Shown here piece by piece: positions 48,004-64,000 of a stretch of 64,000 nucleotides of DNA (the stretch's first letter is position 1; every line of letters begins with the position of its first letter). A program made the position numbers and the translations under genes. Origin of the DNA: Rhodobacter maris (GTDB taxonomy: Bacteria; Pseudomonadota; Alphaproteobacteria; Rhodobacterales; Rhodobacteraceae); the NCBI RefSeq assembly GCF_900217815.1, contig NZ_OBMT01000003.1:124001-188000 (forward strand), written 5' to 3'. The notes under the pieces were generated by a model. The model was not told the origin of the DNA, did no database searches, and was given only the letters and a program-made list of their open reading frames with translations.

Positions 48004-48048
48004 CGCTTCCTCCCTCGGGGAGGCCCGCCGGGGGCGGGCCCGGCATGC

Positions 48049-48405
48049 TCAGACGGCGGCACCGCGATAGACGACCATGTTCGCGCCTTGGCTCTGGGTG
48101 AAGTTGTCGTAGCCGATCAGGCGCACGTGGTGGCCGGGATTGGCCTCGTGGCAGGCCTTCAGCTCGGCAAGGATCGCATCGACATCGCTTTCGCCAAACA
48201 TCGGCAGTTTCCACATGTACCAATAGGTGCCCCGCGCGAAGTCCGGCTCGGTATGCTCGATCGCCGGGTTCCAGCCGTGCTGGACGATCCAGGCGACCTG
48301 AGCGCGGATCTGCGCGTCATCCATCGGTGGCAGATAGGAAAAGGTGCCCATCTTGCGGCTTTCGGGGGTGGAGAGGCGGGAAGCGTAATCCTGAACCTGG
48401 GTCAT
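48049..48405 (-). CDS. cbbS: RuBisCO small subunit
   Basis: A 118-residue small subunit. It has [20 protein letters not shown] near the N-terminus, the form I opening, and [14 protein letters not shown] in the middle. Eight copies cap the CbbL octamer. AAGGA precedes the ATG. It lies 83 bases after cbbL, and a strong hairpin sits in the gap. Confidence 0.97.
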
Positions 48406-48429
48406 GGTCGGTCCTTTCGGTCAAAGGTG

Positions 48430-48458
48430 CCCGGGGGCGCTGCGCCCGGACCCCCGGG
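48430..48458 (-). other. Intercistronic hairpin between cbbL and cbbS
   Basis: An 8-bp GC stem (CCCGGGGG / CCCCCGGG) with a 13-base loop that is itself partly self-complementary. There is no T run on the minus strand, so it more likely stabilises the cbbL message or adjusts the L:S ratio than terminates. The sequence resembles a GC-rich element near 22340-22370. Confidence 0.6.
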
Positions 48459-48488
48459 ATATTTGTGCCAAGGTGAAACGGGGCCGGG

Positions 48489-49919
48489 TCAGCGGTGCTG
48501 CACATCGAGCTTGTCGACGGTGTCGAATTCGAACTTGATCTCTTTCCAGGTCTCCATCGCCACCTTGAGCTCGGGGCTGTGGCTGGCGGCTTTTTGCAAG
48601 ATCTCCTTGCCTTCGCGCTCCAGATCGCGCCCCTCGTTGCGGGCCTGCACGCAGGCTTCGAGCGCGACCCGGTTCGCCGCCGCCCCGGCCGCATTGCCCC
48701 AGGGGTGGCCCAGCGTGCCGCCGCCAAACTGCAGCACCGAGTCATTGCCGAAAATCGCCACAAGGGCGGGCATGTGCCAGACATGGATACCCCCCGAGGC
48801 GACCGGGAACACCCCGGGCATCGAGCCCCAATCCTGATCGAAGAAGATGCCGCGCGCGCGGTCTTCGGCGATGAAGCGATCGCGCATCAGGTCGATCCAG
48901 CCCAGCGTCGCCGCACGGTCGCCCTCGAGCTTGCCCACGACCGTGCCCGAATGCAGATGGTCGCCGCCCAGCAGCCGCAAGAGTTTCGCCAGCACCCGGA
49001 AGTTGATGCCGTGGTTCGGGTTGCGGTCGATCACCGCATGCATGGCGCGGTGGACATGCAGCAGCATCCCGTTGTCGCGGCACCATTTCGAGAGCGAATT
49101 ATGCGCCGCCCAGCCGAGCGTGATGTAATCCGACATGATGATCGGCGTGCCGAGTTCCTTGGCGAATTCGGCGCGGCGGAACATGTCTTCCACCGTCGGC
49201 GCGGTGACATTCATGTAATGGCCCTTGCGCTCGCCGGTTTCGGCCTCGGATTTGGTGATCGCTTCCTGACAGAACAGGAACCGGTCGCGCCAGCGCATGA
49301 AGGGCTGGGAGTTGACGTTCTCGTCGTCCTTGGTGAAATCGAGCCCGCCGCGCAGGCATTCATAAACGGCGCGGCCATAGTTCTTGGCGGAGAGGCCGAG
49401 CTTGGGTTTGATCGTGCAGCCCAGAAGCGGGCGGCCGTATTTGTCCATCTTGTCGCGTTCGACCTGAATGCCGTGCGGCGGACCAAAGCAGGTTTTGACG
49501 AACCAGATCGGGAAGCGCACGTCCTCAAGCCGGAGCGCGCGCACCGCCTTGAAGCCGAACACATTGCCCACAAGCGAGGTGAAAACGTTGACGACCGAGC
49601 CTTCCTCGAAGAGGTCGGCGGGGTAGGCGATGAACGCATAAAACGCCTCGTCATGGCCCGGCACGTCTTCCACTCGGTAGGCGCGGCCCTTGTAATGATC
49701 AAGATCGGTCAGAAGGTCGGTCCAGACCGTGGTCCATGTGCCGGTCGAGCTTTCGGCGGCGACCGCGGCGGCGGCCTCCTCGCGGCTCACGCCCGGCTGC
49801 GGGGTCACCTTGAAGACGGCGAGAACATCGGTGTCCTTCACCGTGTAATTCGGCTCCCAGTAGGTCGCGCGATATTCCTTCACACCGGCGTCATAGGTCT
49901 TTCTCGGTTGGGCATTCAT
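48489..49919 (-). CDS. cbbL: RuBisCO large subunit, form IA
   Basis: A 476-residue catalytic subunit that carboxylates ribulose-1,5-bisphosphate. Active-site features are intact: K171 in GCTIKPKLG, the carbamylated K197 with D199 and E200 in [19 protein letters not shown], the loop-6 lysine in [10 protein letters not shown], and [21 protein letters not shown] lies before the ATG. Linked cbbQ and cbbO and the divergent cbbR point to the form IAq class seen in the R. capsulatus cbbI operon. It is the first gene of cbbLSQO, so CO2 fixation is under one LysR-controlled promoter. Confidence 0.98.
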
Positions 49920-50018
49920 CGACTGGTCCTCCTCCCGTTTCTTGAGAGAAACCTACCCGGTTGCAAGACTATGCAAAAATGAATAGTTTTTAGAGATATA
50001 CTTCATGAAAGGATATTC
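49920..50018. promoter_or_regulatory. cbbR-cbbL divergent promoter with ATGAA/TTCAT half-sites
   Basis: Around 49971-50020 the DNA is AT-rich. It holds ATGAA at 49979, the palindrome TTCATGAA at 50002-50009 and TTCAT at 50016, forming two overlapping inverted repeats. These are good candidates for CbbR binding, since LysR-type operators carry T-N11-A symmetry. The last half-site overlaps the cbbR start codon, which suggests autoregulation. Confidence 0.6.
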
Positions 50019-50906
50019 ATGCGGGCGAGCCTGCGGCAGTTGCAGATCTTCGAGGCGGTGGCGCGGGAGCTGTCCTATACCCGCGCGGCCGAAAGGTTGC
50101 ATCTGACCCAGCCCGCCGTCTTCACCCAGGTGCGCACGCTTGAAGAGCAGATCGGCGCGGATCTGATCGAGCGGATCGGCAAGCGGCTCTATCTCACCGA
50201 AGCGGGCGAAACAGTACGCGCCGCGGCGCGCGAGATGCTGGGCGAAATCGAGCGGATGGAGGCGCGGCTGTCCGAGTTGAAGGGGCTCTCGGCCGGGCGG
50301 CTTCGGCTCGCCGCTGTCTCCACTGCGCAATACGATGCGCCCGCGCTTCTGGGCACGTTCTGCCGCGCCCATCCCGGGATCGAAGTGGCGCTGAAGGTCG
50401 GCAACAGGGGGGAATTGCTCGCGCGTTTCGCCGCAAACGAGGACGATCTCTACATTCTCGGCACGGTGCCCGAAGAGCTTGACGCGGAGTCTTTCGCTTT
50501 TGCAGAGAATCCCCTCGTGCTGATCGCGCCGCCCGAGCACCCGCTGGCCAAACTGCACACGATCGCGCCTGCCCAGCTCGCCGGCGAGCCCTTCGTGATG
50601 CGTGAGACGGGCTCGGGCACCCGCATCGCCACCGAGCGCTACCTCGCCGCCCATGGGCTCGCGCCGAACCTGCGGCTCGAACTTGGCGCGAATGCCGCAA
50701 TCAGGCAGGCGGTGATCGCAGGGCTCGGCATCGCGGTGCTGTCGCGCTCCACCGTTGCGCTCGAACTCGAACTGGGTCGGCTCGTAGCGCTCGATGTCAG
50801 CGGTTTTCCGATCGTGCGCGCCTGGCATGTTGCCTGGCCGCGCGGCAAGCGGCTCGCGCCAGCAGCGCAGGCGTTCCTCGCGCAGCTCCGCGGCGCGTTT
50901 TCGTAA
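50019..50906 (+). CDS. cbbR: LysR-type regulator CbbR
   Basis: A 295-residue LysR-family protein. The N-terminal helix-turn-helix is in LSYTRAAERLHLTQPAVFTQVRTLE, followed by the linker helix and an effector domain with LGTVPEELDAESFAF and FVMRETGSGTRIATERYL, typical of the CbbR/CysB-like subgroup. CbbR activates the Calvin-cycle operon in response to metabolites such as RuBP. It is transcribed divergently from cbbL with a 99-base shared promoter, the usual arrangement. No good ribosome site other than AAAGGA is seen. Confidence 0.94.
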   Translation: MRASLRQLQIFEAVARELSYTRAAERLHLTQPAVFTQVRTLEEQIGADLIERIGKRLYLTEAGETVRAAAREMLGEIERMEARLSELKGLSAGRLRLAAVSTAQYDAPALLGTFCRAHPGIEVALKVGNRGELLARFAANEDDLYILGTVPEELDAESFAFAENPLVLIAPPEHPLAKLHTIAPAQLAGEPFVMRETGSGTRIATERYLAAHGLAPNLRLELGANAAIRQAVIAGLGIAVLSRSTVALELELGRLVALDVSGFPIVRAWHVAWPRGKRLAPAAQAFLAQLRGAFS

Positions 50907-51001: not shown

Positions 51002-52138
51002 ATGACGACCCATTTCATTACGGCCGCCTGTTTCAGGCAGACCGGCTATTCGGGCAATCATCCGCTGGCGATTCCGCGTGTGGGCACGGTCGAGAGGCTC
51101 TGCGCGGCACTGGGCTGGTTCGGGCCGGGGCATGCGCCGCTCGAATGCTTGCCCGCGAGCCGCGCGGAGATCGCGCGATTCCATGCGCCCGACTACATTG
51201 ATGCGATCTGCCGCGCCGAGGCCGCGGGCGGGGCGAGCGCAGAGGACCGTGCGCGCTATCAGATCGGCACGCTCGAGAACCCGGTTTTCGAAGGGCTCTG
51301 GCACCGCGCGGCCGTTTCGGTGGGCGGGGCGATCCTCGCGGCGCGGCTCGCGCATCGGGGCGCGGTCGCCTTCCATCCGGGGGGCGGCGCGCATCACGGG
51401 CTGCGTGAGCGCGCAAGCGGGTTTTGCTTCTTCAACGATCCGGTCTTCGCGGTGCAGACCTTGCTCGATCTGGGCCGCGCCCGCGTGCTCTATGTCGATC
51501 TGGATGCGCATCACGGCGACGGGGTGGAGATCGCCTTCGCGCAGGAGCCCCGGGTGATGACGCTGTCGCTGCACGAAACCGGGCGCTGGCCCTTCACCGG
51601 GCGGATCGACGATCAGGCGCCGGGGATCTGCAACCTGCCCCTGCCGCCCCGGCTCAACGACAGCGAATTCGACGCGGTGATTGCCCGGGCCGCGCTGCCG
51701 ATCGGGCGCGCCTTTGCCCCCGACGCGGTGGTGGTCACGGTCGGCGCCGATGCGCTCAAGGGCGATCCGCTGTCGTCGCTGGCGGTCTCCAACACCCGGC
51801 TCTGGGCCGCCACTGAGGCGTTCTGCGCGCTTGCCCCCGCCCGCGTGGTGCTCGGCGGCGGGGGCTACAACCCCTGGACGCTCGGGCGTGCCTGGGCCGG
51901 GCTCTGGGCGCGTCTGTCCGGTCAGGCGATTCCGGCACGGCTGCCAGCGGAGGCGCAGGCGGTGCTGACGAGCCTCGACTGCGATCTCGTGGAAGAGGAA
52001 GATCGCGATCCCGACTGGTTCGTGACGATCGCCGATCCGGAAACTCCCGGGCCGGTGCGGCGCGAGGTCGAGGCGCTGATCGCAGCGGCGGGCTGGGCAC
52101 CGAGGTCAGGGAGGATGACCGAATGGGCGACTGGATGA
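51002..52138 (+). CDS. Histone-deacetylase-family (AcuC-like) zinc hydrolase
   Basis: A 378-residue amidohydrolase of the HDAC/AcuC/acetylpolyamine hydrolase superfamily. Catalytic residues are intact: tandem His131-His132 in HPGGGAHHG, zinc ligands D168 and H170 in VDLDAHHGDG, and D250 in VGADALKGDPL. GGGGYNP supplies the usual Tyr region. The enzyme should remove acyl groups from lysine or polyamines in the cytoplasm. Its last 16 bases overlap lipS1, whose ribosome site lies inside this gene. This coupling suggests a role in lipoate or octanoate metabolism. That role is inferred. Confidence 0.88.
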   Translation: MTTHFITAACFRQTGYSGNHPLAIPRVGTVERLCAALGWFGPGHAPLECLPASRAEIARFHAPDYIDAICRAEAAGGASAEDRARYQIGTLENPVFEGLWHRAAVSVGGAILAARLAHRGAVAFHPGGGAHHGLRERASGFCFFNDPVFAVQTLLDLGRARVLYVDLDAHHGDGVEIAFAQEPRVMTLSLHETGRWPFTGRIDDQAPGICNLPLPPRLNDSEFDAVIARAALPIGRAFAPDAVVVTVGADALKGDPLSSLAVSNTRLWAATEAFCALAPARVVLGGGGYNPWTLGRAWAGLWARLSGQAIPARLPAEAQAVLTSLDCDLVEEEDRDPDWFVTIADPETPGPVRREVEALIAAAGWAPRSGRMTEWATG

Positions 52139-53157
52139 GCGCTCTCGCCCGGATCGAGGCGCTGGAGGATGCGGCGTTTGACGAAGTGCTGGTGGCCGAG
52201 ATGCAGGCGCATGCGGCGGGCGCCCGGGCACGCGATCTTCGCTTTTCCACGCCTTCTTTCAAGGAATATGACAGCCAGGAGATCAAGGGCTGCGGAAAGA
52301 ATGCTTTTCCGGCCTTCTCGATCACCGGCGCGGCTTGCGCGCTCGATTGCGATCATTGCCGGGCGAAGATCCTCGAGCCGATGATCCCGGCCACCCGGCC
52401 CGAAGACCTCGACCGCAAGGTGCGCGACCTCGTGCTGTTGCAGGGATTGCAGGGGTTCCTGCTTTCGGGCGGCTCGAACCGGCGCAACGAGATCCGTTAC
52501 GAACGGTTCTACCCCGTCATCGAGAGGCTCAAGCGCGACTTCCCCGGGATGCGGATCGCGATCCATACCGCGCTCACCGATGCGGCGGGGGCAAAGCGGA
52601 TGGAGGCGGCGGGCGTCGATACCGCGATGATGGATGTGATCGGGGCGGAGGAGACCATCCGCGAGGTCTATCATCTCGACCGGCCCGTGGAGGATTTCGA
52701 GGCGACGCTTGCGGCGCTTTCCGCCACGGGCATGGAGATCTCGCCCCATATCGTGATCGGGCTGCATTACGGGCGGCTCAAGGGCGAGGCGCGCGCGCTC
52801 GAGATCGTGGCGCGTTATCCCACCAAGGCGCTGGTGCTTGTGGTGGTGATGCCCTTCTACGCGACACCCGGCACTTTCGCGACCGTGCCGCCTGCCGATG
52901 TCGGGCGGATTTTTTTGCGCGCGCGCGAGGTTTTGCCGGACCGCGATCTGCTTTTGGGCTGCGCCCGGCCCGCGGGCATGCACAAGCGGGTGACCGATGC
53001 CTATGCCGTGATGGCCGGGCTCGACGGGATCGCCTTTCCGGCCGAGGGCGCGGTGGGAGTGGCACAGATGGTGGGGCGGCGCTGGGATCAGGCCCATGCC
53101 TGCTGCTCGATCAAGCTTGGTACGGGTGCGAGTCTGCGAGCGGGGTGCGCGGCATGA
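52123..53157 (+). CDS. lipS1: Radical SAM lipoyl synthase component (LipS1-type)
   Basis: A 344-residue radical SAM protein with the cluster motif CX3CX2C at C72, C76 and C79 (CALDCDHC). Other cysteines include C57, CARPAG and the C-terminal HACCSIKLG, which could bind a second Fe-S cluster. In the pathway described by Tanabe, Dahl and co-workers, LipS1 and LipS2 together insert sulfur into octanoyl groups on carrier protein. Position before lipT-lipS2-ligase supports this over biotin synthase. AGGGAGG lies 8 bases before the ATG. Which of the two proteins is S1 is assigned by gene order. Confidence 0.8.
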   Translation: MGDWMSALARIEALEDAAFDEVLVAEMQAHAAGARARDLRFSTPSFKEYDSQEIKGCGKNAFPAFSITGAACALDCDHCRAKILEPMIPATRPEDLDRKVRDLVLLQGLQGFLLSGGSNRRNEIRYERFYPVIERLKRDFPGMRIAIHTALTDAAGAKRMEAAGVDTAMMDVIGAEETIREVYHLDRPVEDFEATLAALSATGMEISPHIVIGLHYGRLKGEARALEIVARYPTKALVLVVVMPFYATPGTFATVPPADVGRIFLRAREVLPDRDLLLGCARPAGMHKRVTDAYAVMAGLDGIAFPAEGAVGVAQMVGRRWDQAHACCSIKLGTGASLRAGCAA

Positions 53158-54275
53158 ATGAAGATCTCGACGTTCTGGTGATTGGTCTTGGCCCGGCGGG
53201 GGCCTCGGCGGCGGCGGCGGCGGCACGGGCGGGGGCGCGGGTGTTGGCGGTGGACAGGCGCGCGACCCCCGGAGACCCCGTGCAATGCGCCGAATTCGTG
53301 CCGCGCGCGCTGGGCGCCGAGACGCGGGCACTGCGCGCGGCGGCTGTGCAGGAGATCGCGGCGATGGAGAGCTATGTCTCGGGCACACATCTGCGCAGCG
53401 ATGACTTCCGGGGCATGATGATTGACCGCGCCGCCTTCGATGCGGCGCTGGTCGCGGAGGCGCGCGCCGCAGGGGCCGGGATTGTCACCGGCGTTGCGCT
53501 CGAGGCCCTCACCGAGGCAGAGGCGCGGCTTGGTGACAATCGCAGGTTCCGCGCGCGGGTGGTGATTGGCGGCGACGGTCCGCAATCGCGCGTGGGCGCC
53601 GCGGTGGGGCTTGTGAACCGCGATTTCTGCGAGGCACGGCAGATCACCGTGCCGCTGCGCCAGCCCCATGATGCGACCGACATCTTTCTCGCCGCCGAAA
53701 TTCCCGGCGGTTATGGCTGGCTTTTTCCGCGCGGGGCGGAGGCCAATCTCGGCCTTGGCGTTGCATGGGCTGAGCGGGCCTGTCTCAAGCCGTTGCTGGA
53801 GGCGCTTCATGCCGAGCTTGTGGCCGAGGGGCGGGTGGGCCGCCAGCGCCGTCGCCTGACCGGCGGCATGATTCCGGTGGGCGGGCTTGTGGGGCCCCTC
53901 GGGCATCTTGGTCGGCTGCCGGTGCTGCTGGCGGGCGATGCCGCGGGGCTCACCCATCCGATCACCGGCGCCGGGATTGCGAGCGCCTGCCTGTCGGGGG
54001 CGATGGCGGGGGAGGCGGCGGCGCAGATCGTTGCGGGCCGCGCCGGGGCTGCTGCGGATTATGCCGAGGAGATCGCGGATCTGTTCGGCCCGACCCTGCG
54101 CCTTGCGCTCGCGCGGCGCGCCGAGCTGATGGCGCACTATGTCACCGGAGCGCCCGACACGGCGGCCCTGCGCCGCGCCTGGGTCGCCTATTCCGACTAT
54201 CGCGACGCTCCGCTGCCCTCCGCGGGGGGCTCGGACACGGCCGCCGTTGAGGCCCGCATCGAGGAACCCGCATGA
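53154..54275 (+). CDS. lipT: FAD-dependent oxidoreductase LipT (geranylgeranyl-reductase-like)
   Basis: A 373-residue flavoprotein with an N-terminal dinucleotide motif VLVIGLGPAGASAAAAAARAG, MIDRAAFDAAL, and the second FAD motif LLAGDAAGLTHPITGAGIASA, as in the geranylgeranyl reductase/FixC group. In sulfur oxidisers such a gene lies between lipS1 and lipS2 and was named lipT. It may supply electrons to the radical SAM proteins, but no biochemistry I know fixes this. It overlaps lipS1 and lipS2 by ATGA at each end. Confidence 0.78.
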   Translation: MNEDLDVLVIGLGPAGASAAAAAARAGARVLAVDRRATPGDPVQCAEFVPRALGAETRALRAAAVQEIAAMESYVSGTHLRSDDFRGMMIDRAAFDAALVAEARAAGAGIVTGVALEALTEAEARLGDNRRFRARVVIGGDGPQSRVGAAVGLVNRDFCEARQITVPLRQPHDATDIFLAAEIPGGYGWLFPRGAEANLGLGVAWAERACLKPLLEALHAELVAEGRVGRQRRRLTGGMIPVGGLVGPLGHLGRLPVLLAGDAAGLTHPITGAGIASACLSGAMAGEAAAQIVAGRAGAAADYAEEIADLFGPTLRLALARRAELMAHYVTGAPDTAALRRAWVAYSDYRDAPLPSAGGSDTAAVEARIEEPA

Positions 54276-55549
54276 GCTGCATCAAGACCGAGACCCCGGC
54301 GCAAGGCGCGCCCACCGGCTTCAATGCGCCCGAAGTGATGGTGCCGCGCCCTCCCGCTCCGGTGCCCGAGGCGCGCCGCAACGGTGCGGCGGTCCGGCTG
54401 GCCGGGGTCAGCCCGGAGGGCCTCTACCGCCCCGATTACCGGGTGATGACGCCTTCGATGCGCTCGCCCGATTATGTGCAGATGTCCACCGCGGCGGCGA
54501 TCACGCTGGGGCTCGTCGAGGGGCAGATGTATAACTGCGCCTGCACCCGTTGCCTGAACCTGCTGCTCACTTACCCGGAAGGTTGCCGGGCCAATTGCGC
54601 CTATTGCGGGCTCGCGCGTCACCGCGAGGCGGAGCGCAATTATGCCGATCGCAATTTCATCCGTGTCGACTGGCCCGCGGTGCCGATGGCAGAGGTGGTG
54701 GAGCGCGTCGCCGCGGATCCGGAGACGCCTTTCCACCGCATGTGCATCTCGATGATCACGCATCCGAATTCGGATGCGGACACGTTCACCGTGCTTGAGC
54801 GCTGGACCGAGCGGATCGACCCTGACCGGATCCCGGTTTCGATCCTCTCCAACCCGACCACCATGACGCGCGCCGATGTGATGCGCCTGCGCGACATGGG
54901 ATCGGACATTTTCACGGTTGCGCTCGATGCCGCCACACCCGGGATCTTTGAGCGCACGCGCGGCAAGGGCGTGCAATCGCCGCACAGCTGGGCGGGCTAC
55001 TGGGCGGCCCTGGATTGGGCGCGCGAGGTGTTCGGAGCGCAAAAGTTCGGCGCGCATCTGATTGTCGGCATGGGGGAGACGGAAGCCGAGATGCTTTCCG
55101 TGGTGCAGCGCCTCGTCGACATGGGGGGCCACAGCCACCTGTTCAGCTTCTACCCTGAAAAAGGCTCGTTGATGGACCATCTGCCCGCCACGCCGCGCGA
55201 TCAATGGCGCCGCGTGCAGCTTGGCCGCTATCTGATCGACTATTGCGGTGTGCGGGTCGAGCAGATGCGGTTTGATGACCGTGGCCGGGTCGCCGATTTC
55301 GGCCTGCCGGAGGGGGAGCTTGACGCGATCATCGACGCGGGCATCGCCTTTCGCACCTCGGGCTGTCCGGGCAAGTTCGCCGAGGATATTTCCGCCTGCG
55401 ACCGGCCCTATGGCGACAGCCCGCCCTCCGACATCGCCTCCTATCCTTTCGCGCTCCGGCCCGTCGATCTGAGGCGCGTGCGCTCGCAGCTCGGCCGGGT
55501 GCGGCCCGGAGAGATTTATGAGCCGGGCGAGGAATTCGAGCATGACTGA
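54272..55549 (+). CDS. lipS2: Radical SAM lipoyl synthase component (LipS2-type)
   Basis: A 425-residue radical SAM protein. The SAM cluster motif is C105-X3-C109-X2-C112 (CRANCAYC), and a second set, C89-X-C91-X2-C94 (CACTRC), lies just upstream and may hold an auxiliary cluster that donates sulfur, as in LipA. Two more cysteines occur in SGCPGKFAEDISACDRP near the C-terminus. With LipS1 it would convert protein-bound octanoate to lipoate. It overlaps lipT by ATGA and the ligase gene by 8 bases. The S1/S2 naming follows gene order. Confidence 0.8.
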   Translation: MSCIKTETPAQGAPTGFNAPEVMVPRPPAPVPEARRNGAAVRLAGVSPEGLYRPDYRVMTPSMRSPDYVQMSTAAAITLGLVEGQMYNCACTRCLNLLLTYPEGCRANCAYCGLARHREAERNYADRNFIRVDWPAVPMAEVVERVAADPETPFHRMCISMITHPNSDADTFTVLERWTERIDPDRIPVSILSNPTTMTRADVMRLRDMGSDIFTVALDAATPGIFERTRGKGVQSPHSWAGYWAALDWAREVFGAQKFGAHLIVGMGETEAEMLSVVQRLVDMGGHSHLFSFYPEKGSLMDHLPATPRDQWRRVQLGRYLIDYCGVRVEQMRFDDRGRVADFGLPEGELDAIIDAGIAFRTSGCPGKFAEDISACDRPYGDSPPSDIASYPFALRPVDLRRVRSQLGRVRPGEIYEPGEEFEHD

Positions 55550-56627
55550 GCCGAAGAAGGCGCCGAAGACGTTTCGGGTGATCGATACCGGCGTGCGCCC
55601 CGGGCGCGCGCAGATCGCCTTTGATCAGGCCCTGATCGAGGCGCATAAGGCAGGCCAGATCCCCGACACGATCCGTTTTTTGACTTTTCCGCCCACCGTG
55701 CTGGTAGGGCGCCACCAGTTGATCTCGCAGGAGTTGAACCTGCCCGCCTGTCGTGCCGCGGGTGTCTCCATCGGGCGGCGGGTGACCGGGGGCGGGGCGC
55801 TTTATCTCGACGAGGGCCAGTTCGGCTGGGAACTTGTCTTCCATCGCGCGACGCTCGGCCTGCCAAGCCTTGGCGATGTCGCGCGCGAGATCTGCGAGGC
55901 GGCGGCGGAGGGGCTGCAGAGCCTCGGAATCGCGGCGTCCTACCGGCCGCGCAACGACATTGAAGTAGAGGGGCGCAAGATCTCCGGCACCGGCGGGTTC
56001 TTTGACGGTGACACGATCTTTTATCAGGGCACGGTGCTGATGCAGATGGACGGGGCGAAGATGGCAGGGCTTCTGAACATCCCGGCCGCGAAGCTCGCGC
56101 GCCACGGCGCGCAGGAGGCTGTGAGCCGGATCGTTACGATGGCCGAGCTTTTTGACGGCAAGCCACCGCCGGTGCGCGCGGTGAAGGCGGCGTTGCTCGC
56201 CGCTTTCGCGCACCGGCTCGGTATTCGACCCGAACGGGGCGCGATCAGCGAGACCGAAGAGCAGCTTGCGCAGCGGTTTTACGATGACGAGATCGGCACC
56301 GATGATTTCGTCTACGGGCTCGACGCCCCGGCCGGGGCCGCCGATGTGCGCATCGCCACCCATGCGGGCAAGGGCGGCACGATCACCGCGCATCTGCGGC
56401 TCGAAGGGGCGGGGCAGGACCGGATCCGCGAAGTGCTTTTCACCGGCGATTTCTTTGTCGCCCCGCCGCGGGTCGTGCCCGATCTGGAGGCGGCCTTGCG
56501 CGGGGTGGAGCTTGCGGCGGCCGAGGCGGTGGTCGAGGATTTCTTTGCCCGCGCGGGGGCGGCGCTGATGTCGGCACCAGGCAGCGATTTTGCCCGCGCG
56601 CTTCTGGCGGCGGCGGGGCGGGCCTAG
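55542..56627 (+). CDS. slpl(AB): Lipoate-protein ligase sLpl(AB)
   Basis: A 361-residue ligase of the LplA/LipB superfamily. The lipoyl-binding loop RRVTGGG is at 79-85 and the catalytic Lys is K146 in GRKISGTGG. The large N-terminal domain is followed by a smaller LplB-like C-terminal domain (about 250-361, TDDFVYGL onward), matching the fused A+B architecture. It attaches octanoate or lipoate to carrier proteins, here probably the LbpA carrier of the sHdr pathway. The ATG at 55542 overlaps the lipS2 stop, with GAGGA upstream. Last gene of the lip operon. Confidence 0.88.
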   Translation: MTEPKKAPKTFRVIDTGVRPGRAQIAFDQALIEAHKAGQIPDTIRFLTFPPTVLVGRHQLISQELNLPACRAAGVSIGRRVTGGGALYLDEGQFGWELVFHRATLGLPSLGDVAREICEAAAEGLQSLGIAASYRPRNDIEVEGRKISGTGGFFDGDTIFYQGTVLMQMDGAKMAGLLNIPAAKLARHGAQEAVSRIVTMAELFDGKPPPVRAVKAALLAAFAHRLGIRPERGAISETEEQLAQRFYDDEIGTDDFVYGLDAPAGAADVRIATHAGKGGTITAHLRLEGAGQDRIREVLFTGDFFVAPPRVVPDLEAALRGVELAAAEAVVEDFFARAGAALMSAPGSDFARALLAAAGRA

Positions 56628-56643: not shown

Positions 56644-57525
56644 TCAGGGCGCGGTTTCGGGGAGCGCGAGGCGGAGAAAGGCGCGGGCGGCTTCGGTCAG
56701 GTGCCGCTCGGGATGGAGCAGGAGCCGGAATTCGCGCGTGGCGGGCGGGGCGGTGAGGCGCAGGAGCCGCCCGTCGGCGAGGTCGGCGGCGACGGCGAGA
56801 TGCGAGATCAGCGTCGCCCCGCCGCCCGCGATCACTGCTGAACGCACCGCCTCGTTCGAGGGGAATTCGAGCCGCCCGCCCGGCTCCGGCACCCCCATAT
56901 CGGCCAGCGCCTCATCCATCCGCGCCCGCGTGCCCGAGCCTGCCTCGCGCATGATCCAGGGGCCCGCGGCAAGATCGGCGGGCGTTGGCGTGCGCTGTGC
57001 CCAAGGGTGGGTGGGGGCAACGACGAAAAAGAGTTCATCCGCGCCGAAGGGCCGGTCGATCAGCCCCTCCTGAACCGCGCCGCCCTCGATGAAGCCCAGA
57101 TCGGCGGAGAGCGCGGCGACTTCGCGACTGACGGTTTCGGAATTGGCGGTGAGCAGGTCCAGCGCGATCCCGGGATGGCGGGCGTGGAAGCGCACGACGA
57201 GCGGCGGCAGCCAATAAGTTGCGAGGGTCTGGCTGGCGGCGATCCGCAGCGAGCCGCGCGAAAGCCCCGCGAGATCATCCAGCACCCGCTCGGCGGCGGC
57301 GGCGCGGGCCAGCACCGCGCGCGCCTCAGGCAAGAAGAGCCGCCCGGCTTCGGTGAGCTTGATGCCGCGGCCGATGCGGTCAAAAAGCTTGGTGCCATGG
57401 CGCGCCTCAAGCGCCGAGATTGCCGCCGAGACGGCCGATTGCGTGAGATGCAAAGCCTCTGCCGCGCGCGTCACATGTTCGCGCTCGGCCACGGCAAGAA
57501 AGATGCGCAACTGCTCAAGGGTCAT
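56644..57525 (-). CDS. LysR-family regulator, YeiE/CysB-like
   Basis: A 293-residue LysR regulator. The helix-turn-helix is in VTRAAEALHLTQSAVSAAI, followed by an effector domain with ADLGFIEGGAVQEGL and WIMREAGSGTRARMDEAL. This effector pattern is the same as in CbbR/CysB-type members. It follows the YeiH-type exporter by 9 bases in the same direction, so the two form one transcript. In enterobacteria the analogous pair is yeiE-yeiH, with YeiE reported to respond to sulfite. Control of sulfur genes here is an inference. Confidence 0.88.
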   Translation of the reverse strand: MTLEQLRIFLAVAEREHVTRAAEALHLTQSAVSAAISALEARHGTKLFDRIGRGIKLTEAGRLFLPEARAVLARAAAAERVLDDLAGLSRGSLRIAASQTLATYWLPPLVVRFHARHPGIALDLLTANSETVSREVAALSADLGFIEGGAVQEGLIDRPFGADELFFVVAPTHPWAQRTPTPADLAAGPWIMREAGSGTRARMDEALADMGVPEPGGRLEFPSNEAVRSAVIAGGGATLISHLAVAADLADGRLLRLTAPPATREFRLLLHPERHLTEAARAFLRLALPETAP

Positions 57526-57534
57526 GCCTCAAGG

Positions 57535-58518
57535 CTAGAAGAGCCCGGCTCCGATGACCAGCACGAAGGTCAGCCCTGCGATGAAGATCGAGGCGATGAG
57601 GCCGAGCGCAAGCGGCCGCACGCCCTTGGCGCGGAGTTTGGCCACATCGGTTTGCAGCCCCATCGCCGCAAGGCCCATCGCGAGCAGCACCTGGGTGAGC
57701 GGCCCGGCGGCCTTGGTGACGGGGGCGGGCACCCAGCCGGTGGAGGCCAGCCCCACCATGGCGACAAACCCCAGAACGAACCACGGGAAGGGCGCACGCC
57801 CGGTCGAGCCGACATGGCGCGCCATGATCAGGATGAGCGGCGCAAGCAGGGCGACGCGGGTGAGCTTGGCGATGGTGGCGAAGGCGGTGGCTTCAGGGCC
57901 GCCCTGCGCGCCCGCGGCGACGACCTGAGCAACCTCATGGATCGAGGCGCCGGCCCAGAGCCCGTAATCATGCGCGCTCATGCCCGAACCCAGCATCGGG
58001 AACAGGACCATCGCCAGCGTGCCAAAAATGGTGACCGAGGCGATGGCATAGGCAACGTCTTCATCGCTCTCGCGGCCCACGGCATTGGCGGCCAGCACCG
58101 CCGAGGCGCCGCAGATCGAGGTGCCGGTGGCAATGAGCCGGGTCAGCCCCGCCTCGACGCCCAGCCAGCGCCCGGCGGCAAGCGTGAAGAAATAGGTGGA
58201 AAAGAGCGCAATCAGGATCGTGGCCAGCCCGATGCCGCCGACGGAAAGCACCTGCCCCAGCGTGAGTTGCAGACCAAGCACGACGATGCCCGCGCGCAAG
58301 AGCCTGCGCAGCGAGAAGGCGAGGCCGGGCACCGCGCCTGCGGGCAGCCCGTAGGTGTTGCGCACGACCACCCCGATCAGGATCGCGATGATCAGCGGGC
58401 TGAACATGCCCACGCCGGGCAGAAGCCGGAGCAGGAAGGCCGCCGCCACGATTGCCGCCACCAGCGAGACCCCGGGCCAGATCGAGATGCGCGGGGCAGG
58501 GCTGGCAAAAGCGGTCAT
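57535..58518 (-). CDS. yeiH: YeiH-family putative sulfate/sulfite exporter
   Basis: A 327-residue inner-membrane protein of PF03601 with about 9-10 hydrophobic helices. Family landmarks are LIIAILIGVVVRN, GIVVLGLQLTLGQV, SICGASAVLAANAV and WAGASIHEVAQVVAAG. These proteins are annotated as putative sulfate exporters, but the true substrate is unproven. Between the lip and shdr genes the likely cargo is sulfite, the product of sHdr, or sulfate formed from it. The ATG is preceded by AAGGAG. The gene heads a two-gene operon with the LysR regulator. Confidence 0.9.
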   Translation of the reverse strand: MTAFASPAPRISIWPGVSLVAAIVAAAFLLRLLPGVGMFSPLIIAILIGVVVRNTYGLPAGAVPGLAFSLRRLLRAGIVVLGLQLTLGQVLSVGGIGLATILIALFSTYFFTLAAGRWLGVEAGLTRLIATGTSICGASAVLAANAVGRESDEDVAYAIASVTIFGTLAMVLFPMLGSGMSAHDYGLWAGASIHEVAQVVAAGAQGGPEATAFATIAKLTRVALLAPLILIMARHVGSTGRAPFPWFVLGFVAMVGLASTGWVPAPVTKAAGPLTQVLLAMGLAAMGLQTDVAKLRAKGVRPLALGLIASIFIAGLTFVLVIGAGLF

Positions 58519-58703: not shown

Positions 58704-59381
58704 ATGAAGACGATCTGGGTGATGCAGCACACCGAGGCAGAATATCTGGGGCTGATCGAGGACCATCTTGAGGGGCGCAATCTTCGGTTTCGCTATTTTC
58801 GACCTTTTGCGGCAGGGGGGATGGTACCCGAAGGGGCGGAGGCGGATGGGTTGATCCTTCTTGGCGCGGGGCCTTACGGGGTGGTTTCGGGGCATATCCT
58901 GCCCTCGCTCGGCCCGGAATTGCGGCTCACCCGCGCCTTTCTCGCGGCCGAAAAGCCCGTGCTCGGCTTTGGTCTCGGCGCGGTGATTCTGGCCGTAGCA
59001 GGGGGCGGAGGCGCCGAGGAGGCGCCATTGCGATTCGCCGTCGAGGCGGTGGAGATCGCCGGGCTCGGCCCCGCCGCGCCGCAGCATATGCCCTTGGTCT
59101 GTTACTTGCGCGACCGCCCCGTGCTCGGCCCGGAGATGGCGCCGGTGGCCACCGGGACGGGGGGGGAGATGCTCGGGTTCCGCCTCGGCACGTCGAGCCT
59201 CGGCCTGCTCGGTCACCCCGGCATGAAGCGCGGCATGGCCGAAGATCTGATCATAGAATTTGCCGAAACCCCGCCCGACACGGTGGCCGCGCTGGAGGCG
59301 CTGGGCCACGCGCAGCGCGCCATTGCCGAGAGCCTCGGCCCGCTCATGGTTTCGCTCATGCAGCGCACCGGCTGGATGTGA
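58704..59381 (+). CDS. Class I glutamine amidotransferase-like protein lacking catalytic residues
   Basis: A 225-residue protein with the class I amidotransferase fold: an opening MKTIWVMQHTEAEYLGLIE, then ADGLILLGAGPYGV as the oxyanion strand, and KPVLGFGLGAVILA as the nucleophile elbow. The elbow Cys is replaced by Gly90. The usual His-Pro-Glu is H171-P172-G173, so the Glu is lost as well. The protein cannot hydrolyse glutamine by the known mechanism. Its conserved place beside dsrE3C-shdr suggests a binding or scaffolding role. Length and codon use are normal, so it is not a decaying gene. Confidence 0.85.
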   Translation: MKTIWVMQHTEAEYLGLIEDHLEGRNLRFRYFRPFAAGGMVPEGAEADGLILLGAGPYGVVSGHILPSLGPELRLTRAFLAAEKPVLGFGLGAVILAVAGGGGAEEAPLRFAVEAVEIAGLGPAAPQHMPLVCYLRDRPVLGPEMAPVATGTGGEMLGFRLGTSSLGLLGHPGMKRGMAEDLIIEFAETPPDTVAALEALGHAQRAIAESLGPLMVSLMQRTGWM

Positions 59382-59943: not shown

Positions 59944-60696
59944 ATGACCGTGCATTCGAAACTGCCGCAACCTCCGGTTGCCGATCCGGTATCGGCAAAG
60001 CCGGTGGTGGAGTATGAGACGCTCGAAGCGATCTTTGACGATATCCGCGGCCATCCGCTTTACGATCACGAGATCCACGGTTGCCTCAACTGCGGCATCT
60101 GCACCGCGACCTGCCCCTCGGCGCAATATTACGACTACAGCCCCCGCGAGATCGTGCAACTGCTCTGGACCGAGAATCTCGAGGGCATCTATGACGCGAT
60201 GCACGAAAAGATCTGGGCCTGCGCGCAATGCTATACCTGCGCCGCGCGCTGCCCGTTTGAAAACTCGCCGGGCGGGCTTGTGATGATCCTGCGCGAGGTG
60301 GCGATCAAGCACGAACTGCCCTCGGTGAAAGAGGTGCTGCGCCCGTTCTCGCGCGTGCTTCTCAAGGTGGTTTCCACCGGCAACCAGTTGGCGCCGAACA
60401 TGATCACCCGCGAGGCCTTCCCCGATTGGGGGCCCAATGTCGCGAAGGTCGATGCGCCGCTCATGGTGCTGCGCAAGGCGATCCCGATGCCGACGATGCA
60501 CACGCTCGACACCGCCTGGGAGGTGAACCTGCGCACCTCGGTCGAGCTTTACACGATCTGGGAGGCGAGCGGCGTGCTCAAGCAGCTCGAACAGGTCGAT
60601 GAAAACCTCTTCGACGTGGTCTCCGACGTGATGGAGGAGAAGCGCGACGAATGGGAGGAATGGCTCGAGGAGCAGGAAGAGGATGACGACGACTGA
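59944..60696 (+). CDS. shdrC1: sHdrC1, iron-sulfur subunit of the sHdr complex
   Basis: A 250-residue HdrC-like protein. Two ferredoxin-type [4Fe-4S] motifs are clear: C47, C50, C53, C57 (CLNCGICTATCP) and C93, C96, C99, C103 (CAQCYTCAARCP). It carries electrons between sHdrA and sHdrB1. The last 25 residues are strongly acidic (WLEEQEEDDDD at the end), longer and more acidic than in methanogen HdrC. GGGGGAGGGG precedes the ATG. It is followed by shdrB1 after 46 bases. Confidence 0.95.
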   Translation: MTVHSKLPQPPVADPVSAKPVVEYETLEAIFDDIRGHPLYDHEIHGCLNCGICTATCPSAQYYDYSPREIVQLLWTENLEGIYDAMHEKIWACAQCYTCAARCPFENSPGGLVMILREVAIKHELPSVKEVLRPFSRVLLKVVSTGNQLAPNMITREAFPDWGPNVAKVDAPLMVLRKAIPMPTMHTLDTAWEVNLRTSVELYTIWEASGVLKQLEQVDENLFDVVSDVMEEKRDEWEEWLEEQEEDDDD

Positions 60697-60742
60697 CCGT
60701 CGCCGCCACCGATCACCGCGACTTTAGGGAGGAGTGCGGAAG

Positions 60743-62107
60743 ATGGCCGAGGACACCGAGGGAAAGGGCGCCTACAGGGGCTTTGGCGCGGATTGGGCGC
60801 CCACGCAGCTGAGCGAGACGGAAGCGCGGCGCGCGACCGGCTGGGTCGAGGCAAAGATCGACAAGCGCTTTCTTCTGACCGGCAAGGACCGCAAGGAGGA
60901 TGTGCGCGCGCTGATGTGGCAACTGGAGCGCGAGGGCGAGATTGTCGTGCACCGGGTGGGCGAGGCCCAGGCCCCAGAGATGGCCAAAACGCTCTACGGC
61001 TGGGACAAGAAGATCCCGACCACGAACCTTTGGCATCACAAATCCTGCGGCCAATGCGGCAATATTCCGGGCTATCCGTCCTCGGTGCTCTGGATCATGA
61101 ACGAGCTTGGGCTGACCTATCTCGACGAGACCGATCAGACCTCCTGCACTGCGTGGAACTACCACGGCTCGGGCATCGGCAATGTCGTCTCCCTTGCCGC
61201 CGTGTTTTTGCGCAACATGCATCAGGCCTATGTTTCGGCCAAGGCGCAGGGGCTGCCCGAGGGCACGTTCTACCCGCTCATCCATTGCGGCACGAGCTTT
61301 GGAAATTACAAGGAAATCAGAGGCTTCCTGCTGCATTCGGCAGAGCTTCGGGCAGAGGTGAAAGCGATCCTCGGCAAGCTCGGCCGGCTTGTCGATGGCA
61401 AGCTCCTGATCCCCGAAGAGATCGTGCATTATTCCGAATGGCTCCATGTGATGCGGCACCGCATCAAGGAACGCCAGCAGATCGACGTGTCCAACATCCG
61501 CACCACGGTGCATCCGGCCTGCCATGTCTACAAGATGGTGCCGGAGGACGTGATCTATGACGACACGGTCTTGAATGGCGACCGCGTGGCAGTGACGACG
61601 GGGCTGTTGCAGAGCCTCGGCACGCAGGTGATCGACTATTCGACCTGGTATGATTGCTGCGGCTTCGGCTTTCGCCACATCATCGGCGAGCGGGAATTCA
61701 CCCGCTCCTATGCCATCGACCGCAAGATCAAGGTGGCGGTCGAGGAGGCGCGTTCGGATGTGATGATCGGCCATGATACCGGCTGCATCACCACGCTCGA
61801 CAAGAACCAGTGGATCGGCAAGGCGGTGGACAAGGTCTATGCGCTTCCGGTGATGGCCGATTGCCAGTTTGCCGCCCTCACCATGGGCGCCCACCCCTAC
61901 AAGCTCGCGCAGCTTCACTGGCATGCAAGCCCGTTCGAGGGGCTTCTGGAGAAAATGGGGATCGACTGGGAAAAGGCGAAGGCCGAGTTCGAAACCTACC
62001 TTGGCGAGGTCAAGGAGGGCCGGATCGAAACGCTTTATGACCCGAAGCGCGCGATCACCTCCGGCCCCGGCCACGTCAAACCCCCGAAAAGCCTTCAAGG
62101 AGCGTGA
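60743..62107 (+). CDS. shdrB1: sHdrB1, catalytic-type CCG-domain subunit
   Basis: A 454-residue HdrB-like protein. The C-terminal CCG domain is complete (C260, C305-C306-G307, C348) and could bind a noncubane [4Fe-4S] cluster. The N-terminal copy is altered: C102 and C105 in KSCGQCG, C135 in TSCTAWNYHGSG where CCG is expected, and C182. So only one canonical site is present, as expected for the B1 type. With sHdrA and sHdrC1 it should oxidise sulfur bound to the lipoate carrier. The ATG at 60743 is 8 bases after GGGAGGAG; the in-frame GTG at 60734 overlaps that site. Confidence 0.94.
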   Translation: MAEDTEGKGAYRGFGADWAPTQLSETEARRATGWVEAKIDKRFLLTGKDRKEDVRALMWQLEREGEIVVHRVGEAQAPEMAKTLYGWDKKIPTTNLWHHKSCGQCGNIPGYPSSVLWIMNELGLTYLDETDQTSCTAWNYHGSGIGNVVSLAAVFLRNMHQAYVSAKAQGLPEGTFYPLIHCGTSFGNYKEIRGFLLHSAELRAEVKAILGKLGRLVDGKLLIPEEIVHYSEWLHVMRHRIKERQQIDVSNIRTTVHPACHVYKMVPEDVIYDDTVLNGDRVAVTTGLLQSLGTQVIDYSTWYDCCGFGFRHIIGEREFTRSYAIDRKIKVAVEEARSDVMIGHDTGCITTLDKNQWIGKAVDKVYALPVMADCQFAALTMGAHPYKLAQLHWHASPFEGLLEKMGIDWEKAKAEFETYLGEVKEGRIETLYDPKRAITSGPGHVKPPKSLQGA

Positions 62108-62110
62108 TGC

Positions 62111-63166
62111 ATGCGTGACAAACCCATCCTGATCGTGGGCGGTGGCCCGGCGGGGCTTTCAGCGGCCCATGCGGTCGTGGCCTCCGGGCGGCAGGCGGTG
62201 CTGGTGGACAAGGCCGACCGGCTTGGCGGGGCACCGATTTTGCAAGGCTATGCAAAGCTCGTGCCGAGCCACGAATGGGCGAAGGATGCGATTGGCGCAA
62301 TGGTGCGCCGGGTGGAGCAGAACAAATCTGTCACTGTTTACACCGGCGCGCAGGTGCAAAGCTTCACCGGCGATCCGGGCGCTTTCACGGCCACGCTGAA
62401 GGATGGCACCAGGATCGCCGCCGATGCCGCGATCCTCGCCACTGGCTTCACCCATTTTGACAGCCTCAACAAACCTGAATGGGGGTTTGGCACCTATCCC
62501 GACGTGGTGACGACGGTGCAGGTCGAGCAGATGATCTCTTCGGGCAAGGGCATCCGCTGCCCCTCCGATGGCCGGGTGCCGGAGCGGGTGGCGATCCTCC
62601 TGTGCGTCGGCTCGCGCGACCGCCAGATTGGCCGCGAATGGTGCTCGAAGATCTGCTGCACCGTTTCAGCAAACATGGCGATGGAAATTCGGGAGCTCTC
62701 GCCCCAGACCAATGTCTATATCTATTACATGGATATCCGCACCTTCGGCCTTTACGAGGGCGAGTTCTACTGGAAAAGCCAGGAGGAGGCGCGGGTCAAA
62801 TATATCAAGGCGCGCATCGCCGAGGTCACCTCGGACGGCAAGCGGCTGGTGGTGAAGGGCGAGGATACGCTCGTCAAACGGCCAATCACCATCCCCTTCG
62901 ACATGGTCGTCCATGCGATCGGCATGGACCCGAATGTCGACAACATGACGCTCGCCTCGGTCTTCGGCGTGAAGCTCTCGGGCTATGGCTATATCGAGAA
63001 GGCCGCCGCCTATGTCACCACGGGCCAGACCTCGCGGCCCGGGGTCTATGTGGCGGGGGCGGCCGCCGGGCCGGAAACGATTGACGATTCCATCGCACAG
63101 GGGCAGGCGGCCGCAATCGCGGCGCTCTCGCTTGCGGGTGTCGGCGTCGCCGAGGCGGCGGAGTGA
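62111..63166 (+). CDS. shdrA: sHdrA, flavoprotein subunit
   Basis: A 351-residue FAD protein, much shorter than methanogen HdrA, as in the sulfur-oxidising type. The N-terminal FAD motif is ILIVGGGPAGLSAAHAV, with the iron-sulfur region CVGSRDRQIGREWCSKICC in the middle and YVAGAAAGPETIDDSIAQGQ at the C-terminus. The complex yields sulfite and passes electrons to NAD+ or a quinone-linked acceptor. AAGGAG lies 8 bases before the ATG, 3 bases after shdrB1. Its stop overlaps the shdrH start (TGATG). Confidence 0.95.
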   Translation: MRDKPILIVGGGPAGLSAAHAVVASGRQAVLVDKADRLGGAPILQGYAKLVPSHEWAKDAIGAMVRRVEQNKSVTVYTGAQVQSFTGDPGAFTATLKDGTRIAADAAILATGFTHFDSLNKPEWGFGTYPDVVTTVQVEQMISSGKGIRCPSDGRVPERVAILLCVGSRDRQIGREWCSKICCTVSANMAMEIRELSPQTNVYIYYMDIRTFGLYEGEFYWKSQEEARVKYIKARIAEVTSDGKRLVVKGEDTLVKRPITIPFDMVVHAIGMDPNVDNMTLASVFGVKLSGYGYIEKAAAYVTTGQTSRPGVYVAGAAAGPETIDDSIAQGQAAAIAALSLAGVGVAEAAE

Positions 63167-64000
63167 TGCGCGGGCGCGCAACACCACCCGGGCCTGTGCT
63201 CGATCTTTCGGGCGACCGGTTGCGCCGGGCGATGGCAGATCTTGCCGCCTCGGCGGAGCCCACCGGCGGCGTGAACCGCTATCTGACGGCGCTGCATCTG
63301 AAATCTGCGCTGTTCAAAGAGGTTTTGGGGCAGGGCGCGACGGGGCTCAGCGAGACCGAGTTTTTGGACCTCGTCGCGTTCATGGCCCCGGTGCGCCGCC
63401 GCATCGGCCCGGTGATCGCGCGCCTCGGTGTTGAGGAGCTGGGCCGAAGGATCGAGGCGCTTTTGCACGGCGAAGGCGGGGTTGACGCGCGTCTGGCCCG
63501 CTTCATTGCGGCTTTCCCGAACGGCAAGGAAATGCGCTGGGTGCGCGACCTCGGCGCGGAGCTTTTGCACTTCACCCAGCCCTCGGTGCCGCTGATGGCG
63601 CGCTGGGTCTGGGATGCGCGGGTCTCCACCGGCGTGCTGCGCGAGATCTGGCATGCGGCGGATGTCGATATGGCAGAGATTTCCGTGCCCGACGACCTCG
63701 CCACCTTCACCACACTCTATGCCGAGTTGGAGGGTTTTCTGGAGGGCGAGGGGGTCTGGCGCGACCGGATCTGGATGGTCGATCTGCTGATGGCCCATAT
63801 CTACGCGGGTTATATCAACGACCGCGGCGGGCAATATCTGCGCTCTGATTTTACGCAGGATGTCGATCCGATGCTGCACACGCGGCGCATGCTCGGGCTT
63901 GATGCCGTTGATACCGAGACCGGCCGCACGAGGCTGCGCCTGATCGACGGCAGCGCGCATGAATTTGGGGGCGGACGTGCCGCCCGCCTGGACGTGACGA
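63166..64000 (+). CDS. shdrH: sHdrH, conserved protein of the sHdr cluster, cut by window edge
   Basis: The frame is open from the ATG at 63166 to the right edge, 278 residues so far. It overlaps the shdrA stop by one base. The visible part is mainly helical (LKSALFKEVLGQGATGLSETEFL, VRDLGAELLHFTQPSVPLMARWV, IWMVDLLMAHIYAGYINDRG) with no cysteine and no recognised catalytic motif. In shdr clusters a gene of unknown function named shdrH follows shdrA, so the assignment is mainly positional. Its role is not known to me. Confidence 0.75.
   Translation, partial: MRGRATPPGPVLDLSGDRLRRAMADLAASAEPTGGVNRYLTALHLKSALFKEVLGQGATGLSETEFLDLVAFMAPVRRRIGPVIARLGVEELGRRIEALLHGEGGVDARLARFIAAFPNGKEMRWVRDLGAELLHFTQPSVPLMARWVWDARVSTGVLREIWHAADVDMAEISVPDDLATFTTLYAELEGFLEGEGVWRDRIWMVDLLMAHIYAGYINDRGGQYLRSDFTQDVDPMLHTRRMLGLDAVDTETGRTRLRLIDGSAHEFGGGRAARLDVT

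Follow-up and report, generated by a model that had tools for sequence, protein, structure and literature searches.

Why should a gene for a lysine deacylase of the histone deacetylase (HDAC) family lie directly before, and overlap, an operon that assembles lipoate on a sulfur carrier? The question is raised by a 64,000-nucleotide stretch of the Rhodobacter maris genome (contig NZ_OBMT01000003.1, positions 124,001 to 188,000; hereafter the window), in which a preliminary description had placed a lipoate-assembly operon of four overlapping genes at 52123-56627. All four open reading frames (ORFs) are present, those of lipS1 and slpl(AB) at exactly the coordinates given, but 52123 is not where the train starts: it probably begins one gene earlier, at 51002. 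We propose that the five genes of 51002-56627, overlapping at their ends, form one unit by which the sulfur carrier LbpA has its lipoyl group made and managed, and give this proposal an even chance of being right. Genes were called from the ORF list of the window and from reading of the junctions, and families were assigned by NCBIfam and Pfam scans:

51002..52138, + strand: predicted zinc-dependent lysine deacylase of the HDAC/AcuC family (PF00850, 219 bits; nearest structure HDLP, 1c3r); adjoins lipS1 in many genomes
52123..53157, + strand: lipS1, radical S-adenosylmethionine (SAM) lipoyl synthase component (NF053742, 187 bits; radical-SAM Cys 72/76/79; candidate auxiliary Cys 280/327/328 and His209)
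53154..54275, + strand: lipT, flavin adenine dinucleotide (FAD) oxidoreductase of the geranylgeranyl-reductase superfamily (TIGR02032, 182 bits; ATG start at 53154 read from the sequence)
54272..55549, + strand: lipS2, radical SAM lipoyl synthase component (NF053743, 180 bits; radical-SAM Cys 105/109/112; candidate auxiliary Cys 158/365/376)
55518..56627, + strand: slpl(AB), fused LplA/LplB-type octanoate/lipoate:protein ligase (PF21948, 145 bits; TIGR00545, 136 bits; LplB-domain match)

The deacylase ORF ends 16 nucleotides into lipS1; should lipS1 start at 52135 instead, the two genes share only an ATGA. lipT and lipS2 each begin with an ATGA that spans the stop codon of the preceding gene, and the start of slpl(AB), whether 55518 or the in-frame ATG at 55542, lies within lipS2. 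Because the deacylase start lies 95 nucleotides past an upstream LysR ORF (50019-50906), the deacylase probably heads the train. The LysR gene that precedes it here also precedes the deacylase in two other loci (L018 and L019).

The lip genes at 52123-56627 are themselves another instance of an operon type already known; the deacylase, as a regular member of the lip system, looks like the new element. A literature search returned, among the matches listed, no paper that connects a deacetylase to these lip genes, subscription papers being mostly outside its reach, and the word "deacetylase" has no use in the main texts, supplements excluded, of PMC10332631, PMC6067878, PMC11582611, PMC6382920, PMC6397845, PMC13384644, PMC12423496 and PMC10451225.

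Linkage of the deacylase gene to lipS1

To place the gene in a wider context, the 18 proteins of the region were compared by tblastn with 89 other lipS1 loci from Alphaproteobacteria and some Gammaproteobacteria, many of them from metagenome-assembled genomes (MAGs). Nine loci came from a class sample of 385 alphaproteobacterial genomes, the tenth being that of the window's own genome, and the rest were the best 80 of 265 matches in named genomes. A phylum sample comprised 398 Pseudomonadota; two of its eight LipS1 genomes (G000 and G070) belong to the class sample as well. A deacylase homologue lies within the cluster in 71 of the 89 loci: in 65 it precedes lipS1 on the same strand, in four it occupies another place in the locus, and in two it falls just past a short flank (L016, L017). 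One contig ends too near to judge (L041), and 17 loci have no deacylase in the stretch examined. Spacing is mostly tight, the distance from the deacylase stop to the start of the LipS1 match being -17 to 158 nucleotides (median 42, five overlaps) in 59 of the 65 upstream cases and 1.1-2.8 kb in the other six.

The association also survives rearrangement in several genomes. Where the deacylase has been relocated within the locus (L069, L078, L080, L088) it follows the lip genes, less than 8 kb from lipS1. Moreover, six of the 17 genomes with no clustered deacylase encode the same type elsewhere (547-621 bits): two on the contig of lipS1, where the gene takes the distal end of the shdr island (L157, L158); one following lipS2-slpl(AB), the contig there seemingly being a continuation of the broken cluster (L161); one next to dsrE3C (L160); and two with no scored neighbor in view (L159, L162). 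Of the loci, 72 contain lipS1, lipS2 and slpl(AB) together, and among these the deacylase occurs in 60 and lipT in 48; 40 have both, 20 the deacylase only, eight lipT only and four neither, one of the four being the locus cut by its contig end.

The genome samples point the same way. In the phylum sample the deacylase lies upstream of lipS1 in seven of eight LipS1 genomes, and the seven highest deacylase scores among the 398 genomes belong to seven of the eight LipS1-positive ones. In the class sample, scores of at least 561 bits occur in 6/10 LipS1-positive and 0/375 LipS1-negative genomes (Fisher 5e-11), the best LipS1-negative score being 515 bits. Deacylase distances also track LipS1 distances (Mantel rho 0.44, against a maximum of 0.26 in 999 permutations) over the 51 rows in which all four genes occur, the window's among them, although less closely than do LipS2 (0.63) and slpl(AB) (0.50).

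Type, phylogeny and predicted active site of the deacylase

The best match among solved structures is HDLP of Aquifex aeolicus (PDB 1c3r; 331 bits with a profile), the closest solved relative of the deacylase, but on a long branch in the tree. H131, H132, D168, H170, D250 and Y289, which by comparison with HDLP and HDAC8 we take to be the catalytic histidine pair, the Asp-X-His and Asp zinc ligands and the tyrosine, are invariant in 50 aligned rows, and the catalytic and zinc residues are all invariant in a 66-row alignment save for one Gln at 131. Glu92, at a peptide-contact site mapped through HDLP, is kept in 50/50 rows; from the HDAC8 comparison, peptide-lysine deacylases presumably carry Asp or Glu at this position. 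In the foot pocket GG-x-HH replaces RPP, with [AGS]GG[TAM]HH across the 66 rows (the first His replaced in one) and GGGY in place of XGGY. The RPP motif narrows the foot pocket in deacetylases, and GGGXHH/GGGY has been tied to the removal of longer acyl groups (PMC11532494; papers are cited throughout from parts of their texts). AcuC of Bacillus subtilis (cluster 2c) belongs to the same family and, as here, has the GGGXHH and GGGY motifs and an acidic peptide-contact residue; it is slow on all peptides, best on an octanoyl-lysine one, and thought to serve AcsA (PMC11532494). Taken together with the operon, the foot-pocket motifs and Glu92 make an eight-carbon acyl-lysine the obvious candidate substrate, and LbpA its obvious candidate carrier. 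A. aeolicus itself has an LbpA, aq_402 (PMC6067878).

Phylogeny separates the deacylase from AcuC-type proteins of the same class. In the tree, 68 rows of the type found with lip genes (lip-type) and 22 AcuC-type rows lie on opposite sides of one branch, with a support of 99 in the Shimodaira-Hasegawa-like approximate likelihood ratio test (SH-aLRT), and the window's deacylase does not group with AcuC-type proteins of its class. Trees of 91 and 90 rows were made by a quick method without bootstrap, HDLP being the only outside row. Rows more than 85% identical were dropped, taking the lip type from 74 to 62, plus six from genomes with the gene away from lipS1, and the AcuC type (a label given here; all alphaproteobacterial) from 24 to 22. 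LipS1-negative genomes supplied 20 of these 22; the others, L107 (G231) and L109 (G001), come from LipS1-positive genomes, on other contigs than lipS1. The deacylase differs from the alphaproteobacterial AcuC type in Thr246 (or Val/Cys) for Gln, Ala103 for Pro and Phe149 for Leu, and in occurring with lip genes; the comparison is confined to these rows, B. subtilis AcuC being outside the tree. An initial tree with three distant HDACs suffered long-branch joins (support for the AcuC side 90) and was replaced by trees that omit them. Score alone was rejected as a test of type: lip-type G724 and AcuC-type G184 both reach 515 bits, and the tree parts them.

The lipoate-assembly genes and their surroundings

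The best models for the two radical SAM proteins are LipS1 (E 3.9e-55; runner-up 22 bits) and LipS2 (E 5.5e-53; runner-up 39 bits, BioB 22 bits), some 140-165 bits ahead of the next model. Both matches fall below the NCBI equivalog cut-offs (230 and 270), as does every LipS1 match in the class and phylum samples, and the LipS1 cut-off therefore appears to omit this whole clade. C72/76/79, C280, C327, C328 and H209 of LipS1 are invariant in nine aligned rows, and C105/109/112, C158, C365 and C376 of LipS2 are present in 76/76 proteins. Matched through printed residue numbers, by order and approximate spacing, these agree in kind and order with the CX3CX2C motif, auxiliary cysteines and LipS1 histidine of Thermococcus kodakarensis (PMC9585515). 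There are two differences: the last two auxiliary cysteines of LipS2 are 11 residues apart here and three in T. kodakarensis, and LipS2 here has additional cysteines at 3, 89, 91 and 94, conserved in 75-76 of 76 proteins and lying ahead of the radical-SAM motif, whereas the archaeal LipS2, in the text cited, has only six cysteines in total (PMC9585515). Cys89 is absent in L091, L147, L148 and L149, and L147 retains only Cys91 and Cys94 of the extra set; a third cluster or a sulfur-donor site is possible. A search of solved structures gave no match to LipS1 or LipS2 at 0.001. Frames of 714-716 residues in three genomes, considered as LipS1 fused to another domain, proved to be out-of-frame readings over the upstream gene.

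The ligase matches the LplA-B_cat family and, at residues 286-363, the LplB domain (NF053749, 38 bits, E 1e-9, cut-off 65), and LipT is a geranylgeranyl-reductase-like flavoprotein that matches TIGR02032. These assignments bear out the preliminary description, which had read the operon as one of the LipS1/LipS2/sLpl(AB) type with a radical SAM pair acting in place of LipB and LipA (by family-model scores the pair matches LipS1/LipS2 and not BioB or LipA, with the cluster cysteines kept), a flavoprotein and a fused ligase. The genes and their order are those of lipS1-lipT-lipS2-slpl(AB)-lipX in Hyphomicrobium denitrificans, near shdr and lbpA as here, where lipS2, slpl(AB) and lipX have overlapping start and stop codons and the modification of LbpA2 needs slpl(AB) (PMC10332631). 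Two features set the window apart: the deacylase gene precedes and overlaps lipS1, the H. denitrificans cluster being compared from lipS1 onward, and genes for a YeiE-like regulator and a YeiH exporter intervene between slpl(AB) and lipX. Thioalkalivibrio sp. K90mix has the same enzyme set in a different order (lipS1-slpl(AB)-lipT-lipS2), and its set modifies LbpA in Escherichia coli (PMC10332631).

LipT was considered as a constant partner and rejected: it is absent from 24/72 loci with lipS1, lipS2 and slpl(AB), so the route cannot in general depend on it. All 15 searched genomes of LipT-less loci gave no LipT match at 1e-20, in a search that included no control genome; the same query recovered 63 LipT-bearing loci by phmmer. 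Across all 89 loci, lipS2 follows lipS1, with no lipT between, in 24 (L011, L035, L039, L042 and 20 others).

Downstream of slpl(AB) lie lipX and shdrC1B1A, followed by shdrC2B2-lbpA just beyond the window:

56644..57525, - strand: LysR regulator, best match YeiE, part of the insertion (NF040889, 209 bits, below its cut-off of 480)
57535..58518, - strand: YeiH-family putative exporter, part of the YeiE/YeiH insertion (PF03601, 249 bits; TIGR00698, 177 bits, below its cut-off of 233)
58704..59381, + strand: lipX, putative glutamine amidotransferase (NF005458, 51 bits, below its cut-off of 250; name from PMC10332631)
59378..59893, + strand: DsrE-family sulfur carrier, labeled DsrE3B here (PF13686, PF02635)
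59944..60696, + strand: shdrC1 (HdrC models, Fer4 domains)
60734..62107, + strand: shdrB1 (HdrB NF041780, 110 bits)
62111..63166, + strand: shdrA (HdrA models)
63163..64000, running past the window end (L007:663-1541), + strand: hypothetical protein of the shdr operon, no Pfam match

The hypothetical gene at the window's end is retained in many lipS1 loci. In the window's genome (3.83 Mb), lipA lies on contig C23 and lipB and gcvH on C30, all outside the lip cluster, which is on C51 with the rest of the window; lbpA, with an ESGKW lysine motif, lies 2.1 kb past the window end, after shdrC2 and shdrB2. The genome search that the preliminary description had called for thus recovered lipA, lipB and lbpA, and its pairing of adjoining shdr genes with a separate line for LbpA stands. 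With the canonical genes elsewhere, a dedicated LbpA lipoylation line that coexists with the general LipB/LipA line is well supported.

The antisense YeiE/YeiH pair (56644-58518) is shared, among the 89 loci, only with L018 and L019 (85-90% identity); YeiH-like matches of 30-35% occur elsewhere in L033, L084 and L097. Because YeiH of H. denitrificans has been named as a candidate for sulfite export (PMC11582611), the insertion may be a sulfite-response module. Judged by LipS1, the closest named relatives are Rhodobacter aestuarii (87% identity) and Rhodobacter sp. TJ_12 (85%). A MAG titled Exiguobacterium profundum SSD5 (L023) also encodes a LipS1 with 82% identity to the Rhodobacter-like protein, and the name of this assembly looks wrong. 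Directly upstream of the deacylase gene, 44901-50906 holds what we take to be RubisCO subunits, CbbQ/CbbO-like genes and the CbbR-like LysR, and the region as a whole appears to be a CO2-fixation and sulfur-oxidation island.

Candidate roles of the deacylase

The roles of the ligase and the synthase pair have been demonstrated by others in relatives. On the route as we picture it, sLpl(AB) would use ATP (adenosine triphosphate) to attach free octanoate (or lipoate) to the lysine of LbpA. By analogy with T. kodakarensis, LipS2 would insert sulfur first, at C8, and LipS1 the second sulfur at C6, LipT probably supplying electrons where present. The deacylase would hydrolyse the acyl-lysine amide on LbpA, stripping octanoyl, half-sulfurated or wrong acyl chains, and the carrier could then be reloaded, or would be switched off. 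We regard the case as evenly balanced that a dedicated zinc-dependent lysine deacylase edits or removes octanoyl or lipoyl groups on LbpA in this way: genomic context and phylogeny tie the enzyme to the lip system, and its substrate is one that we infer. Characterized sLpl(AB), in the texts cited, is restricted to octanoate or lipoate in free form and lacks octanoyltransferase activity (PMC10332631; PMC6067878), and with the helper genes in E. coli LbpA went no further than the mercaptooctanoyl stage (PMC10332631). A deacylase of the same operon could matter for both the ligase's need for free acid and the mercaptooctanoyl stage.

Several observations weigh against an editing role on LbpA. The loci were chosen by likeness to the window's LipS1, which favors its kin, and the six high scorers of the class sample are not independent, since three come from a single genus and three themselves contributed rows to the profile. 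The foot-pocket motif was rejected as a marker of the lip type because AcuC-type proteins of LipS1-negative genomes carry it as well. No lip-type deacylase was found in 11/88 informative lipS1 genomes (L009, L010, L012, L013, L047, L048, L068, L074, L075, L085, L091). Likewise, a gammaproteobacterial lbpA-lipS1-slpl cluster with the Thioalkalivibrio K90mix gene order (G385, L147) has no deacylase in the 18 kb read, and its genome none at 1e-120. The deacylase is therefore not essential for the lipoylation route. Furthermore, an antisense dsrE3C is its other neighbor in 30/89 loci, and in the class sample, where 10 genomes have sHdrB1, 10 have LipS1 and nine have both, the lip-type deacylase occurs only in genomes with both sHdr and LipS1, so these data do not separate a role in lipoylation from one in sulfur oxidation. 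Two genomes of that sample carry one system each: G231 (L151) has lipS1-lipS2-slpl(AB) and no sHdrB1 match at 1e-80, and G281 has sHdrB1 and no LipS1 match at 1e-30.

It is accordingly conceivable, though improbable, that the deacylase serves sulfur oxidation rather than lipoylation, deacetylating sHdr, DsrE or other proteins according to energy state in an AcuC-like manner. Besides the dsrE3C neighborhood, this would fit three genomes (L036, L046, L086) in which the deacylase adjoins dsrE3C and not lipS1, with lbpA near in two, and the regulation of AcsA by B. subtilis AcuC (PMC11532494). However, directly before lipS1 is the commonest position of the gene among those scored (65/89 loci), it follows the lip genes in the four loci where it is relocated, and G281, admittedly a single case, has sHdr and no deacylase of this type.

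We would be similarly surprised, but not greatly so, to find that the deacylase feeds the ligase by freeing octanoate or lipoate from proteins loaded by LipB and LipA, such as GcvH. The free-acid requirement of characterized sLpl(AB) (PMC10332631; PMC6067878) would suit such a supply, the window's genome has both LipB and LipA, and the family chemistry would be identical to that of editing on LbpA. Yet essential enzymes would be stripped, and nine of the 11 lipS1 genomes that lack the deacylase type keep the ligase beside lipS1.

A far weaker case can be made for hitch-hiking, in which an ordinary AcuC travels with a horizontally moved cluster without being functionally tied to it. HDAC-family genes are indeed common in Alphaproteobacteria (205/385 genomes with a match at 1e-30), but the lip type's separate side of the branch, its close spacing to lipS1 in 59 loci, its persistence near the lip genes after rearrangement and its greater frequency than lipT in the cluster (60 against 48 of 72) all argue otherwise. 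Finally, we give almost no credence to a biotin-synthase-like radical SAM pair in an operon that does not make lipoate, a reading that has the weak BioB match of LipS2 (22 bits) in its favor and against it the lead of the LipS1/LipS2 models, the conserved auxiliary-cluster cysteines and the slpl(AB), lbpA and shdr context.

Returning to editing on LbpA, removal of a lipoyl group from a protein lysine has a parallel in CobB, an NAD (nicotinamide adenine dinucleotide)-dependent sirtuin whose fold is unrelated to that of the HDAC-family deacylase. CobB of E. coli acts as a lipoamidase that removes lipoyl groups (PMC5596343), as proposed here for the deacylase. For the family at large, the wager that protein lipoylation in proteobacterial sulfur oxidizers has its dedicated eraser, proofreader or acid supplier in a distinct HDAC-family group could, on present evidence from sequences, fall either way with equal ease. 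If it is true, LbpA lipoylation would be reversible and edited, the known sirtuin lipoamidases would have a counterpart that depends on zinc, and the deacylase could connect the HDAC family to bacterial cofactor maintenance.

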